NCBI GenBank assembly: GCA_009920715.1
Contig: RFZO01000002.1
Coordinates: 1-38,578 of the forward strand
Reading direction: 5' to 3'
From: Actinomycetota bacterium
GTDB taxonomy: Bacteria; Actinomycetota; Acidimicrobiia; Acidimicrobiales; Ilumatobacteraceae
DNA: 38,578 bases
The position numbers and the translations under genes were made by a program. This document shows, one piece after another, positions 32,795-38,490 of this stretch. Numbering within the stretch: the first letter of the stretch is position 1; every line of letters begins with the position of its first letter. Under the pieces are notes generated by a model that made no database searches, had not been told where the DNA came from, and worked only from the letters and a program-made list of their open reading frames with translations.

Positions 32795-33823
32795 TCACTC
32801 GACGGTGATCCCCGCCGGTCCCTCGTCGAACCTGCCGATCACCGTGAATCCCTCGTCCACCAGTCGTGCGACCGCGGAGCGGTCCGCCGCCGCGAGCAGG
32901 CCGCCGGATGTCTGGGGGTCCATGCACAGTGCGAGCGCTGCGTCGTCGGCGTGCACCTCTATGTTGCCGCGCACGTACTCACGGTTGCGCGGGTCGCCTC
33001 CGGTTCGGGTGCCCCCGGCCGCGATCCGGCGCGCACCGTCGTAGACGGGCAGCAGGACCGTGTCGACCGTGAGTCTCACACCGGACCGGTCCGCCATCTC
33101 CCAGCCGTGGCCCGCCAGCCCGTACCCGGTCACGTCAGTGACCGCATGCACCGCGTCACCTGCGGCCCGCAGGGCGGAGGCGGCCGCCCTGTTGATGCGG
33201 CGCATCCCCTCGACCGCCTTCTTCTTCTCTCCCTCCGTGCCGGCCGCAGTGACGAGTCCGGTGCCGAGGGGCTTCGAGATGAGGGCCACGTCACCCGGAC
33301 GGGCTCCCGCCTTGCGGAACACCCGACGGGGGTCCACCACGCCCTGCACCGCGAGGCCGAAGACGGGCTCGGGATTGCGGATGGTGTGGCCACCCGCCAC
33401 GCTCCCGCCGGCCTCCTCCACCACCTGCGCGGCGGCGGCGAGGATGGCCGTGACCGCATCCCCAGGGAGATCCTCCGGGAACGCGGCGATGTTCACCGCG
33501 AGCACCACGTCACCGCCCATCGCGAACACGTCGCTGCAGGCGTTCGCCGCCGCGACCGCGCCGAAGTCGGCGGGATCGTCGACGAGCGGCGGGAAGAAGT
33601 CCACGGTGCTCACGAGCGCGAGGTCGTCGGTCAACCTGTACACCGCCGCATCGTCGAACGGCGCAAGACCGACGAGGAGTGACGGGTCGATCCCCGCTGG
33701 CAGGTTGCCCACCAGGTCGGACAGGAGAGTCGCACCCCACTTGGCGGCGCACCCGCCGCACGAGGTCCACTCGGTCAGACGGATGGCCGCGACGGAGTCC
33801 TGATGCGTCCTCTCGCCGCCCAT
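32795..33823 (-). CDS. selD: selenide, water dikinase (Cys form)
   Basis: RLTEWTSCGGCAAKWG active-site region; DDAAVYRLTDDLALVSTVDFFPPLVDDP; ANACSDVFAMGG; VTDVTGYGLAGH. Confidence 0.95.
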   Translation of the reverse strand: MGGERTHQDSVAAIRLTEWTSCGGCAAKWGATLLSDLVGNLPAGIDPSLLVGLAPFDDAAVYRLTDDLALVSTVDFFPPLVDDPADFGAVAAANACSDVFAMGGDVVLAVNIAAFPEDLPGDAVTAILAAAAQVVEEAGGSVAGGHTIRNPEPVFGLAVQGVVDPRRVFRKAGARPGDVALISKPLGTGLVTAAGTEGEKKKAVEGMRRINRAAASALRAAGDAVHAVTDVTGYGLAGHGWEMADRSGVRLTVDTVLLPVYDGARRIAAGGTRTGGDPRNREYVRGNIEVHADDAALALCMDPQTSGGLLAAADRSAVARLVDEGFTVIGRFDEGPAGITVE

Positions 33824-33829
33824 GCGCGC

Positions 33830-33842
33830 ACGGTACTAGGTT
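33830..33842. promoter_or_regulatory. back-to-back TANNNT -10-like elements for selD (-) and selA (+)
   Basis: ACGGTA (minus strand TACCGT, last T 7 nt from selD ATG) and TAGGTT (last T 8 nt from selA GTG), separated by 1 nt. Confidence 0.5.
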
Positions 33843-33849
33843 CCACCGC

Positions 33850-35154
33850 GTGACGAGTCAGCGAGATGACACCGCGAGACCGCCGTCCGTCGACGCACTC
33901 GCACGTGGTCTCGCCCGGCGGCATTCGCTCCCCCACGCTGTGCTCGTGGACTGCGCGCGGCGTGCCGTCGCCGACGGTGCCGCTGACGTGGAAGAACAGG
34001 CCGACCGGCATGCCGCTGCGTTCGCGGCCTCACTCGTGGGCGACGTCATAAACGCCACCGGCGTGCTGCTCCACACCAACCTCGGGCGAGCGCCGGTGCC
34101 GATGGTGTCGTCGGGCCGGCCGACCAATCTCGAGTTCGACACCGTCACGGGCACGCGCGGGAGCCGTCACGCGGCGGTCTCGTCCCTGCTCTCTGTGCTC
34201 ACGGGCGCCGAGGCGGCCGTGGTGGTCAACAACAACGCGGCGGCGGTGATGTTGGTGCTGGCGGCGCTCGCGCACGGCAGGGACGTGGCTGTGTCGCGGG
34301 GCGAGAGCGTGGAGATCGGGGGCGGGTTCCGCATCCCGGACGTGATGGAGCAGTCGGGTGCGCGCCTCGTCGACGTCGGCACCACGAACCGCACGGGCGC
34401 CGCCGACTATGCGAAGGCGATCGCGTCGCCGCGCAACGACATCGCACTCGTGATGAGGGTGCACCCGTCGAACTTCTCGGTCGAGGGGTTCGTGTCCTCC
34501 GCACCGCTCCGCGAGCTCGCGGGGCTCGGTGTCCCCGTGGTCGCGGACATCGGGTCGGGCCTTCTCGACAGCACGTGCCCCTGGCTCCACGGTCGCACCG
34601 ACGGAGTCCCCGCGTTCCTCCGCAACGAACCGGCGGTCCGCCAGTCGCTGGAGGACGGTGCCGCGATCGTCACGTTCAGCGGCGACAAGCTGCTCGGCGG
34701 CCCGCAGTGCGGGATCATCGCCGGCCGGGCCGACCTCGTGGCCACATGCGCGTCGCACCCGTTGATGCGTGCGCTGCGCCCGGGGGGACACACCCTCCAG
34801 TTGCTCCAGGCCGCGCTGCTGTCGTTCGCCGCACGCACGGCCTGCGACGACATCGCGTTCTGGCGGATGCTCGCACTCGATGCCGGCGTGGTCCGTGACC
34901 GTGCGGAAGCTGTCGTCTCGGCGGCTGGTGCCGGCTCCGTCGTGCCCGTGTCCGCCCTGGTCGGGGCGGGTTCGGCCCCGGGCGCGGTGTTGCCGTCATT
35001 CGCTGTTGCGGTGGACGGCGATGTGTCGGCGCGTCTCCGTGCGTGCGCCCTGCCCGTGGTCGCACGCGTCGACAGGGGTGTCACGCTCCTCGATCTGCGC
35101 ACGGTCGACCCCGCGGACGATGCCGCAGTGGTCGCCGCGCTCGCCTCCCTCTGA
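33850..35154 (+). CDS. selA: L-seryl-tRNA(Sec) selenium transferase
   Basis: INATGVLLHTNLGRAPV...VVNNNAAAVMLVLAAL...GFRIPDVMEQSGARLVDVGTTNRT...VTFSGDKLLGGPQCGII; GTG start. Confidence 0.96.
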   Translation: MTSQRDDTARPPSVDALARGLARRHSLPHAVLVDCARRAVADGAADVEEQADRHAAAFAASLVGDVINATGVLLHTNLGRAPVPMVSSGRPTNLEFDTVTGTRGSRHAAVSSLLSVLTGAEAAVVVNNNAAAVMLVLAALAHGRDVAVSRGESVEIGGGFRIPDVMEQSGARLVDVGTTNRTGAADYAKAIASPRNDIALVMRVHPSNFSVEGFVSSAPLRELAGLGVPVVADIGSGLLDSTCPWLHGRTDGVPAFLRNEPAVRQSLEDGAAIVTFSGDKLLGGPQCGIIAGRADLVATCASHPLMRALRPGGHTLQLLQAALLSFAARTACDDIAFWRMLALDAGVVRDRAEAVVSAAGAGSVVPVSALVGAGSAPGAVLPSFAVAVDGDVSARLRACALPVVARVDRGVTLLDLRTVDPADDAAVVAALASL

Positions 35155-35159
35155 CCGAC

Positions 35160-36857
35160 ATGCCCGTCATCGCCACGGCCGGCCACGTCGACCACGGGAA
35201 GTCGTCACTCGTCCGCGCGATGACCGGAACCGACCCGGACCGCCACGAGGAGGAACGCCGAAGGGGGATGTCGATCGACCTCGGCTTCGCGCACGTGTCC
35301 GCCCCCGACGGCACGGTGCTGAGCTTCGTCGACGTGCCCGGCCACGTCGATTTCGTCCGCACGATGATCTCGGGCGTCAACGCGGTGTCCTGCGTGCTCT
35401 TCGTCGTGGACGCCGCCGAGGGGTGGATGCCGCAGTCCGCGGAGCACATGGGAATCGTCACGGGTCTCGGGATCCACCACGGCGTGCTCGCCGTGACGAA
35501 GTGCGACAAGGTCGACGACGACGCGGTGAGGGCGTGCATCGACGACGTCGTGCGCCGCACACCGCGGATGAGATGGTCGGCGAGGATCGCGACGTCGGCG
35601 GTGACGGGCCGCGGTGTCGACGAGCTCGTCTCCGCCCTCGCCGCGGCGGCGCGCGGTGCGTCGCACGCACCCGACCCGCTCGGGCGCGTGCGCCTCTTCG
35701 TCGACAGGTCCTTCTCGGTGCGGGGCGCCGGCACGGTGGTCACAGGCACGCTCGAGGGTGCCCCGCTCGCGGCTGGGGCCGTGCTCACGCTCGTCAGGGA
35801 CGGAAGGGACGTGCGCGTGCGCAGGGTGCAGTCGCTCGGGGAGGAGGTGACTGCCGTGTCACCGGGTTCGCGTTGCGCGGTGAACATCCCCGACATCGAT
35901 GCGGACACCGTCGAGCGCGGTGACGTGCTCGTGGAGGACGGCCGCTGGCACGTCACGGACGTGTTCGATGCGTCGGTCGAGCTGCTGAAGGGCACCGCCG
36001 CGCGCGTGACGACGCGCGGTGGCTACGTGCTCCACTTCGGTTCCTCCCACCAGGCGGCGCACCTGCGCCTCGCTGTGCCCGGCCCGCTGGCGGCGGGGCA
36101 GACCGCACACGCACGGATCCGTTTCCGGTCACCGTTGCCCCTCACCCCGGGTGACCGCTTCGTGGTGCGCGACACCGCCTCGGGCACCACGGTCCTCGGC
36201 GGCACCGTCCTCGACGTGGACCCCCGCGGCAGCGTCGCGTCGGCCGCCAACGGTGCGTCAACAGTGGAACGTCTCGCGCGACGGGGATGGATCCCCCTCG
36301 ACGAAGCGAGGCGACTCACCGGCGTTCCGCTCGGGGCGACGGTGCCCGGCTGGTGGGCGGGAGAGCACGCGTTCGACGGCACGGTCCGCAGGCTGCGGAT
36401 GCTGCTGGACGGCGGGCCCGTCGACCTCGCGACGTTGACGGAGGTGGAGCGGGCGGTCGTCGCGACGCTGCCCGGCGTGACTGTCGAGCGCGGCACGGCG
36501 CACACGGCGGCGCGCGACCCGCTGCTCGACCATCCGTACGCGGTTCGGTTCCGCAGCGCACCGCTCGACGGCGGTTCCACGGCGGGCCTCAACAGGGACG
36601 TCATCCGCAGGCTCGTGCAGGCCGGCATCATCCTCGAGCACGACGCGATCGCGTTCCACGCGGACACGCTCGACGCGCTCGTGCCCGCACTCGAGAAACT
36701 GTGGGCGGCGCACCCGGACGGTTTCCTCATCCGCGACCTCGCCGGCGTGCTCGGGATCTCGCGGAAGTGGGCGGTGCCGCTCGCCGAGTGTCTCGACAGG
36801 AAGGGTCTCACGCGCCGCTCGGGCGACGTGCGCCTGCCGGGGCGCGCGTTGCGCTGA
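35160..36857 (+). CDS. selB: selenocysteine-specific elongation factor
   Basis: MPVIATAGHVDHGKSSLVRAMTGTDPDRHEEERRRGMSIDLGFA; C-terminal winged-helix-like region DLAGVLGISRKWAVPLAECLDRKGLTRRSGD. Confidence 0.96.
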   Translation: MPVIATAGHVDHGKSSLVRAMTGTDPDRHEEERRRGMSIDLGFAHVSAPDGTVLSFVDVPGHVDFVRTMISGVNAVSCVLFVVDAAEGWMPQSAEHMGIVTGLGIHHGVLAVTKCDKVDDDAVRACIDDVVRRTPRMRWSARIATSAVTGRGVDELVSALAAAARGASHAPDPLGRVRLFVDRSFSVRGAGTVVTGTLEGAPLAAGAVLTLVRDGRDVRVRRVQSLGEEVTAVSPGSRCAVNIPDIDADTVERGDVLVEDGRWHVTDVFDASVELLKGTAARVTTRGGYVLHFGSSHQAAHLRLAVPGPLAAGQTAHARIRFRSPLPLTPGDRFVVRDTASGTTVLGGTVLDVDPRGSVASAANGASTVERLARRGWIPLDEARRLTGVPLGATVPGWWAGEHAFDGTVRRLRMLLDGGPVDLATLTEVERAVVATLPGVTVERGTAHTAARDPLLDHPYAVRFRSAPLDGGSTAGLNRDVIRRLVQAGIILEHDAIAFHADTLDALVPALEKLWAAHPDGFLIRDLAGVLGISRKWAVPLAECLDRKGLTRRSGDVRLPGRALR

Positions 36858-36900: not shown

Positions 36901-36996
36901 TGGCGGAGGCGGACGGGAATCGAACCCGCCGGACGGGGATCGCCCGTCCCGTCTGTTTTGAAGACAGCGAAGCCCACCAGGTGCTCGTACGCCTCC
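36901..36996 (-). tRNA. selC: tRNA-Sec (anticodon TCA), encoded 3' GCCA
   Basis: Minus strand GGAGGCGTACGAGCACCTGGTGGGCTTCGCTGTCTTCAAAACAGACGGGACGGGCGATCCCCGTCCGGCGGGTTCGATTCCCGTCCGCCTCCGCCA: acceptor pairing, CTTCAAA anticodon loop, 7-bp long variable arm GGACGGG/CCCGTCC, TTCGATT T-loop, 96 nt. Confidence 0.94.
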
Positions 36997-37044: not shown

Positions 37045-38490
37045 ATGGGCACCAGCGCACCGGTACTCCCCGACGGTCTCGTCGTCGTGGTGAAGCGCGA
37101 GTGCGCGACGTGCCAGATGGTCGAGCCCCTGCTGGCGCTCATCAAGCAGGGTGCCGGGCCGCTCACCGTGTGGACCCAGGACGACCCCTCGTTCGCATCG
37201 TCCGCCGGTGCCGTCCACGACTCCGACCTGTCGGTGTCGTGGCACCACGCCATCGAGACGGTGCCCACTCTCATCAAAGTGAGCGGCGGGAAGGAGACGG
37301 AGCGGACCATCGGTTGGTCGCGCGAGGACTGGCGCCGCATCACCGGCATCGCCGGACTCGGCGAGGATCTCCCCGCGATGCGGCCCGGTTGCGGATCGAT
37401 GAGCGTCGACCCGGACATTGTCGACAAGTTGCGGGCGAAGTTCACGGGGGACACGGTCACGTCGCGCCGCGTCGAGTTCTCCGCGGCGGAGGACGAGTTC
37501 GAGGCGATGTTCGCGCGCGGATGGACGGACGGACTGCCGGTCGTTCCCCCCACCCGCGAGCGGGTGCTGCGCATGCTCACGGGAACAACGCGCGCACCGT
37601 CCGACGTTGTCGCGCTCTGCCCGCCCGACCTCGTCGAACTGACGGTCGAGAAAGTGGCGATCAACGCGGTGATGGCAGGGTGCCTCCCCGAGCACCTGCC
37701 GTGGGTGCTCGCGGCACTCGAGGCCGTGTGCAACGACACCTTCAACATGCACGGCGTTCTCGCCACCACGATGCCCGTCGGGCCGGTGATCGTGTGCAAC
37801 GGCCCCGGCACCAGGGCGATCGGCATGAACAGCGGCATCAACGTGCTCGGCCAGGGCAACAGGGCCAACTCCACCATCGGGCGGGCCGTGCAGCTGACGG
37901 TGCGCAACGTCGGCGGCGGTCGGCCGGGCGAGGTCGACAGGGCGACGCACGGCAATCCCGGCAAGGTGGGCTTCTGCTTCGCCGAGGACGAGCTCTCCTC
38001 CCCGTTCACGCCGCTCTCCGAGTGGCGCGGCATGCCGCCGGGCCAGGACAGCGTCACCGTGTTCGCCGGGGAAGGACCGCGGGGAATGGTCGATCAGCTC
38101 GCCCGCACCCCCGAGGAACTCTGCAAGTCGCTCGCCGAGTCGCTCATCCCGCTGCAGCACCCGAAGCTCGTCATCGGTTTCGACGCCATCCTCATCATCA
38201 GCCCCGACCACGGCCGGATCTTCCGCGACGCCGGATGGGACCGCGAGCGGGTGCTCGGGGAGATCACGCGGCTCACCACCAGGCCGGGCAAGGACCTGCT
38301 GCGCGGGGCGAACGGCATGGCCGAGGGCATCCCTCCCCACCTGCGCGACGCCGACCTTCCCAAGTTCCGGCCGGGCGGCCTGCTCATCACCTATGCCGGC
38401 GGCGGTGCGGGGCTCTTCTCCAGCATGGTGGCCGGCTGGGCGAACGGCAGCGTGGGCAGCGAACCTGTCACCGTGGCAGTGAGGCCGTGA
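37045..38490 (+). CDS. two-domain protein: N-terminal thioredoxin-like region plus uncharacterised conserved-looking C-terminal domain
   Basis: Intact 481-aa ORF; VVVVKRECATCQMVEPLLALI (CXXC) then PGCGSMSVDP and FARGWTDGLPVVPPTRERVLRML...; TACGGT box 7 nt upstream of ATG. Confidence 0.8.
   Translation: MGTSAPVLPDGLVVVVKRECATCQMVEPLLALIKQGAGPLTVWTQDDPSFASSAGAVHDSDLSVSWHHAIETVPTLIKVSGGKETERTIGWSREDWRRITGIAGLGEDLPAMRPGCGSMSVDPDIVDKLRAKFTGDTVTSRRVEFSAAEDEFEAMFARGWTDGLPVVPPTRERVLRMLTGTTRAPSDVVALCPPDLVELTVEKVAINAVMAGCLPEHLPWVLAALEAVCNDTFNMHGVLATTMPVGPVIVCNGPGTRAIGMNSGINVLGQGNRANSTIGRAVQLTVRNVGGGRPGEVDRATHGNPGKVGFCFAEDELSSPFTPLSEWRGMPPGQDSVTVFAGEGPRGMVDQLARTPEELCKSLAESLIPLQHPKLVIGFDAILIISPDHGRIFRDAGWDRERVLGEITRLTTRPGKDLLRGANGMAEGIPPHLRDADLPKFRPGGLLITYAGGGAGLFSSMVAGWANGSVGSEPVTVAVRP

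Follow-up and report, generated by a model that had tools for sequence, protein, structure and literature searches.

What is already described of proteins of this kind? UGSC selenoproteins are described as a prominent family of uncharacterised function (PMC2398784, PMC13188914); in metagenomes from the ocean and from fresh water they rank with the most abundant families of selenoproteins (PMC2398784). In 2008, Zhang and Gladyshev described an 'Unknown_1' domain with a conserved cysteine that is fused to UGSC in marine samples and also occurs separately (PMC2398784, Fig. S1A). Glycine and D-proline reductases act on small amino acids and are linked to thioredoxin (PMC13188914). The window, that is, the whole stretch of 38,578 nucleotides analysed here, carries towards its end a gene in which a thioredoxin-like (Trx) domain is fused to a C-terminal domain (Cdom), with genes of the selenocysteine (Sec) machinery upstream and the beginning of a UGSC-family gene downstream (Table 1). 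Likened by description, Cdom is probably the 'Unknown_1' domain (PMC2398784).

Table 1. Features of the fusion locus in the window, and loci of the related stand-alone family
Feature	Position	Strand	Evidence or remark
selD (selenide, water dikinase)	32795..33823	-	assigned from sequence; arrangement shared by close relatives
selA (ORF; gene probably starts within it)	33679..35154	+	TIGR00474 over cut-off at C2:33982-35145
selB	35161..36857	+	TIGR00475 over cut-off at C2:35166-36230
tRNA-Sec	36905..36996	-	Rfam RF01852, 65.7 bits, E=3.9e-12
Trx-Cdom fusion gene	37045..38490	+	481 aa plus stop
Thioredoxin-like domain, residues 1-118, RPGCGS at its end	37045..37398	+	stand-alone Trx-U profile match, prob 99.1; Foldseek to thioredoxins
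C20-x-x-C23 (CATC) redox motif	37102..37113	+	both Cys in 81/81
R113-P-G-C116-G-S118 junction motif	37381..37398	+	Cys in 81/81; C116 = Sec position of stand-alone family (TGA, nine genomes)
Interdomain linker, residues 119-139, lower model confidence	37399..37461	+	mean pLDDT 64-71, residues 121-150
Cdom, C-terminal domain, UGSC-partner domain	37462..38487	+	without Pfam or NCBIfam match
UGSC-family gene, 5' end, 25 codons, cut by contig end	38504..38578	+	remainder with TGA on contig C72, same assembly (L120)
Stand-alone Trx-U loci	L100, L101, L103, L159-L167		nine Actinomycetota genomes

The reading frame of the fusion is real rather than a chance opening, since it has 190 related stretches (the best 80, at 56-89% identity, were kept) and an alignment of 81 Trx-Cdom proteins contains 113 near-invariant columns; close homologues share its start methionine. 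The sequence-only reading of a thioredoxin-like part joined to an unfamiliar domain has been borne out, and the ECATCQ (C20, C23), ETVPTLIKVSGG and RPGCGS (C116) segments that it pointed out are all present. The only Pfam or NCBIfam match of the whole protein is a sub-threshold thioredoxin hit at residues 58-93; the C-terminal ~340 residues matched no model of either collection at E<=1 and nothing in a sequence search of the PDB. The predicted structure has a mean pLDDT of 88, and within its N-terminal half the stretch right after the C116 motif, residues 121-150, is the least certain, which would suit a mobile junction without proving one.

In the predicted model, Foldseek assigns the N-terminal part to thioredoxins (prob 1.00, TMt 0.60), and the part shows the marks of that fold: an invariant C20xxC23 and a VPT segment (cis-Pro) at 73-75. 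It falls outside the curated thioredoxin families TIGR01068 and PF00085 (13.7 bits against a cut-off of 96.8; no Pfam match). C20, C23, C116 and C311 are invariant among the 81 proteins, and C213 and C229 nearly so. The expectation that the CxxC and PGCGS cysteines would be conserved thus held, and in the fusions they are never replaced by Sec; nor is Trx-Cdom itself a selenoprotein, as neither the window's gene nor any of its relatives (0/81) has an internal TGA. Among remoter Cdoms, C213 is frequent, though not universal. The features most conserved across diverse Cdoms are DGxP, VMAG, NGP, GR, one Glu and a C-terminal Gly, and no cysteine is invariant among them, so that catalysis by a Cdom cysteine would not be required across the family.

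The fusion has a nearly constant companion, UGSC. In 69 of the 77 relatives with enough downstream sequence (out of 80), a UGSC gene starts on the same strand less than ~140 bp downstream (range -13 to +139 bp), which substantiates the functional link to UGSC suspected from the window. Four further loci have UGSC 1-7 kb away, and in the other four it was not seen nearby (L047, L050, L058, L059). Wherever the UGSC site paired with a fusion was readable, it was TGA, that is, Sec (72/72). Among 247 Actinomycetota genomes, ten encode the full fusion, each together with a TGA-UGSC that adjoins it in all but the window's genome, where a contig break parts the two. UGSC-Cdom fusions and stand-alone Cdoms are likewise paired with UGSC. 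The fusion goes with UGSC in its Sec form, while Cdom as such goes with UGSC whether or not Sec is present. Two peculiarities of the collection may be mentioned. In one locus, a fragment of a UGSC N-terminus (L042:6644-6745) that looks like a remnant follows the fusion gene, ahead of a complete UGSC ~6 kb downstream. Several fusions (L007, L009, L013, L040, L042, L050, L052) come from metagenome-assembled genome records titled Bifidobacterium breve or Ferrithrix thermotolerans, titles that look mis-assigned.

A clue to the role of C116 comes from a different set of proteins. The profile of the fusion also matched stand-alone Trx-like proteins (Trx-U) with a single TGA, whose sequence runs CPxCQ ... 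LPxFRPG-U-GSRNAR and ends shortly afterwards. In nine Actinomycetota genomes, the nine positives of a wider search through 397, the TGA falls exactly at the position of C116. In the profile alignment of the window's Trx part with Trx-U, C116 comes to lie on Sec, and the match spans PGCGS/PGUGS; the window's protein carries the same [RK]PG-U/C-x-S ending in its Cys form and runs on into Cdom. All nine genomes have selA and none has UGSC, and no stand-alone protein with Cys at this position was found in the 397 genomes. An intermediate exists in genome G327, a divergent fusion with LPELKPGCQSRH at its junction, followed by a TGA-UGSC, whose layout is Trx(CPTS)-KPGCQS-Cdom, with CPTS rather than CPTC in its Trx part. 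PGCGS had been likened to a Cys version of a U-G-S site. As a Sec site in Cys form it has held up, given the TGA there in the stand-alone proteins, but not as a form of UGSC's own U-G-S-C. The latter sits in an alpha/beta domain of flavodoxin-like type, and the profiles of Trx and UGSC have seven columns in common and no more. We infer that the TGA of Trx-U genes is recoded because the downstream GSRNAR is conserved, all hosts have Sec machinery and the site is homologous to C116. A hairpin follows every TGA of the nine genes, although eight of the nine are no more stable than shuffled sequences of this GC-rich DNA, and covariation of the paired positions is weak; the hairpins are consistent with SECIS elements, and only that. 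No specific NCBIfam model matched these proteins, and the RPGUGS tail motif is absent from a 2026 inventory of 119 selenoprotein families (PMC13188914). They look like a candidate selenoprotein family that current inventories lack.

As for the partner, UGSC is modelled (pLDDT 94.8) as an alpha/beta domain that resembles flavodoxin, with Sec95 where a helix begins. When GrdB/PrdB-like sequences were continued beyond their own TGA, their profile aligned with that of UGSC at a probability of 92.6, Sec falling on Sec; the score of 50.9 was roughly double the highest among 40 column-shuffled controls (25.9). This points to a probable remote relation rather than membership: when UGSC was scanned, only PF24696 scored above threshold, and the protein falls outside PF07355 and its UxxC type. 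The relation does not extend to Cdom, which has no profile relation to GrdB, and no Cdom scanned had any Pfam match, including to the pyruvoyl-forming subunits GrdE/PrdA. Incidentally, short ORFs of GrdB/PrdB-like sequence whose Sec site has a UPxC-type motif are numerous in Actinomycetota genomes (L147-L158), and beside them stand full-length GrdB-like genes with UGTGTR (L139-L145).

How might these parts work together? On balance we favour, with moderate confidence, a two-subunit (seleno)enzyme made of Trx-Cdom and UGSC, with the fused Trx as electron relay. Its footing in the sequence comparisons is the domain layout, the invariant cysteines, the near-obligate pairing with UGSC, the Sec/Cys exchange at C116 and the profile similarity of UGSC to GrdB. 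The two proteins would very probably form a physical complex, with Cdom and UGSC as the catalytic core and the Sec in the UGSC motif supplied by UGSC. The fused Trx would, quite probably, be a dedicated electron donor: C20xxC23, reduced by a cellular reductant, would pass electrons via C116, at the junction beside the flexible linker, to Sec. For C116 we lean, if only slightly, towards such a relay function; as an additional relay it would resolve the Se-S (or S-S) bond that arises at the U-x-x-C of UGSC during turnover, the same position being made with Sec by the stand-alone relative. In some organisms a separate Trx/TrxB may reduce the core, in this lineage the fused Trx; in Roseovarius and Variovorax, trxB is found next to the Cdom/UGSC genes or not far from them. 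As for the chemistry, the likely reaction is that a small organic acid, or a substrate resembling an amino acid, is reduced in a thioredoxin-dependent manner, a guess based on the kinship of UGSC to GrdB/PrdB and on plasmid settings with TRAP/TTT transporters, CoA-transferases and trxB; chemistry of the Grd/Prd type in particular is a tentative suggestion. Besides the variant fusions discussed below, several points tell against this reading: Cdom has no profile relation to GrdB or to class I fumarase and matched no Pfam model of a glycine-reductase subunit, UGSC belongs to PF24696 instead of PF07355, the Trx of G327 has CPTS, four loci have no UGSC close by, and G036 combines TGA-UGSC with no selA match.

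Cdom is found outside the fusion as well. It occurs without Trx adjacent to UGSC (L093-L096, L106, L108, L133-L135, L137) or fused with UGSC in a single ORF (L099, L111, L112; variant fusions L097, L136, L138). On plasmids of Roseovarius, Natrinema and Halalkalicoccus it is annotated as 'hypothetical protein' beside a 'UGSC family (seleno)protein'; in Roseovarius and on haloarchaeal plasmids this UGSC is the Cys form. Synthesis of Sec is not known from haloarchaea. One short contig (L098, L110; G184:C272) encodes two divergent proteins with two tandem Cdom copies each, and no UGSC was detected on it.

The main evidence against a reductase core comes from the variant fusions, in which DMGTS replaces U/CGSC (L097:787-2535, L136:6320-8044, L138:6368-8053), so that the core can exist without its redox residue; possibly they are a non-redox branch. 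The core might then be a lyase, hydratase or similar enzyme acting on organic acids, with Sec/Cys and the fused Trx protecting or regulating it. In keeping with this, DMGTS fusions lie near aconitase X and DUF126 genes (the plasmid copies L136 and L138) and an enolase-like gene, haloarchaeal copies lie near CoA-transferase and lyase genes, and Cdom has weak Foldseek matches to class I fumarase (E 4e-4, TM ~0.2). Yet Cdom has no sequence relation to fumarase (hhalign prob 0.1), and a merely protective residue is hard to square with a U/C-x-x-C that is invariant in all UGSCs of a diverse alignment other than the DMGTS ones, or with Sec in every readable partner of the fusion. We regard a lyase or hydratase as unlikely.

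A general antioxidant or disulfide-repair system, such as a peroxidase or disulfide reductase, instead of a metabolic reductase would accord with a CxxC Trx domain, a Sec partner, mostly aquatic hosts and the many loci in which no catabolic cluster surrounds the pair. We judge it a little less probable still: the best UGSC model is flavodoxin-like, not that of a thioredoxin or peroxiredoxin, a peroxidase would need nothing near the size of Cdom, and plasmid Cdom/UGSC loci belong to catabolic clusters with TRAP/TTT transporters and CoA-transferases. Conserved neighbours other than the sel genes give no clear pointer to a substrate.

Is the fusion, then, tied to the Sec machinery among which it lies? 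The tRNA-Sec recognized upstream of it is confirmed by the Rfam match, and an ARAGORN call of tRNA-Phe(aaa) at 36901-36996 is wrong. The proposed link to this machinery stands insofar as it runs through UGSC, but it is indirect, because Cdom also accompanies Cys-UGSC in genomes without detected selA and on haloarchaeal plasmids; selA/selB adjacency is confined to closer relatives. Of the genomes sampled, 12 of 13 with TGA-UGSC had a selA match, as against 0 of 3 with a non-Sec UGSC; nine of the ten fusion genomes had one. The exception, G036 (L092, contig C10), has the full fusion and a TGA-UGSC without a selA match, for which an incomplete genome, contamination or loss of the Sec machinery are alternative explanations. 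Phylum-wide, co-occurrence of fusion and selA is weak, as selA is common (154 of 247 sampled Actinomycetota, ~62%) and most of its carriers lack Trx-Cdom. It is clean within the window's own order, where 8/8 fusion genomes have selA and 9/9 fusion-less genomes have no selA match, a split confounded by phylogeny; within genus g4, fusion, UGSC and selA are all present in genome G189 and all missing from genome G092. Had homologues of the fusion been widespread without Sec machinery or a UGSC neighbour, its link to Sec would have been in doubt: the full-length fusion is not distributed in this way, whereas Cdom alone does occur without Sec machinery, usually still with UGSC. A direct role of Trx-Cdom in the handling of selenium, such as the delivery of Se to SelD or SelA, would fit the adjoining selD-selA-selB-tRNA-Sec genes and similar sel clusters in close relatives, but is highly improbable, given that in most other loci the pair lies away from the sel genes and keeps its UGSC adjacency, that most selA-bearing Actinomycetota do without the fusion and that Cdom accompanies Cys-UGSC in haloarchaea.

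Returning to the two-subunit (seleno)enzyme, the near-obligate partner, the probable GrdB/PrdB kinship and the built-in electron donor make UGSC an expressible, assayable system, and the stand-alone RPGUGS proteins predict a catalytic C116. More speculatively, and with rather low confidence, UGSC and Cdom could represent an uncharacterised class of two-subunit selenoreductases, remote kin of glycine and proline reductases, ranging from Actinomycetota to haloarchaea, one lineage of which gained a built-in Trx whose C116 descends from, or gave rise to, the new C-terminal Sec site.

Compared to the systems described so far, UGSC (NF041046 / PF24696) is the immediate neighbour of the fusion, invariably in its Sec form; it is the partner and not the fusion itself, and has no sequence relation to Cdom or to the Trx part beyond the seven-column motif match. 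The text of the 2008 study describes no Trx fusion of 'Unknown_1', and the Trx-like fold it suggests for UGSC is unsupported by the flavodoxin-like model (PMC2398784). GrdB/PrdB (PF07355, TIGR04483) share with UGSC a U-x-x-C followed by an E-R-x-G-I-P-T-like helix-strand segment; their systems differ in that UGSC lies outside PF07355 and Cdom is not of the GrdE/PrdA type by any model scanned. Selenoprotein thioredoxins (UxxC), finally, resemble the proteins discussed here in Trx fold and Sec/Cys exchange, but they carry Sec in the CxxC motif, whereas the new stand-alone family carries it in a C-terminal RPGUGS tail.
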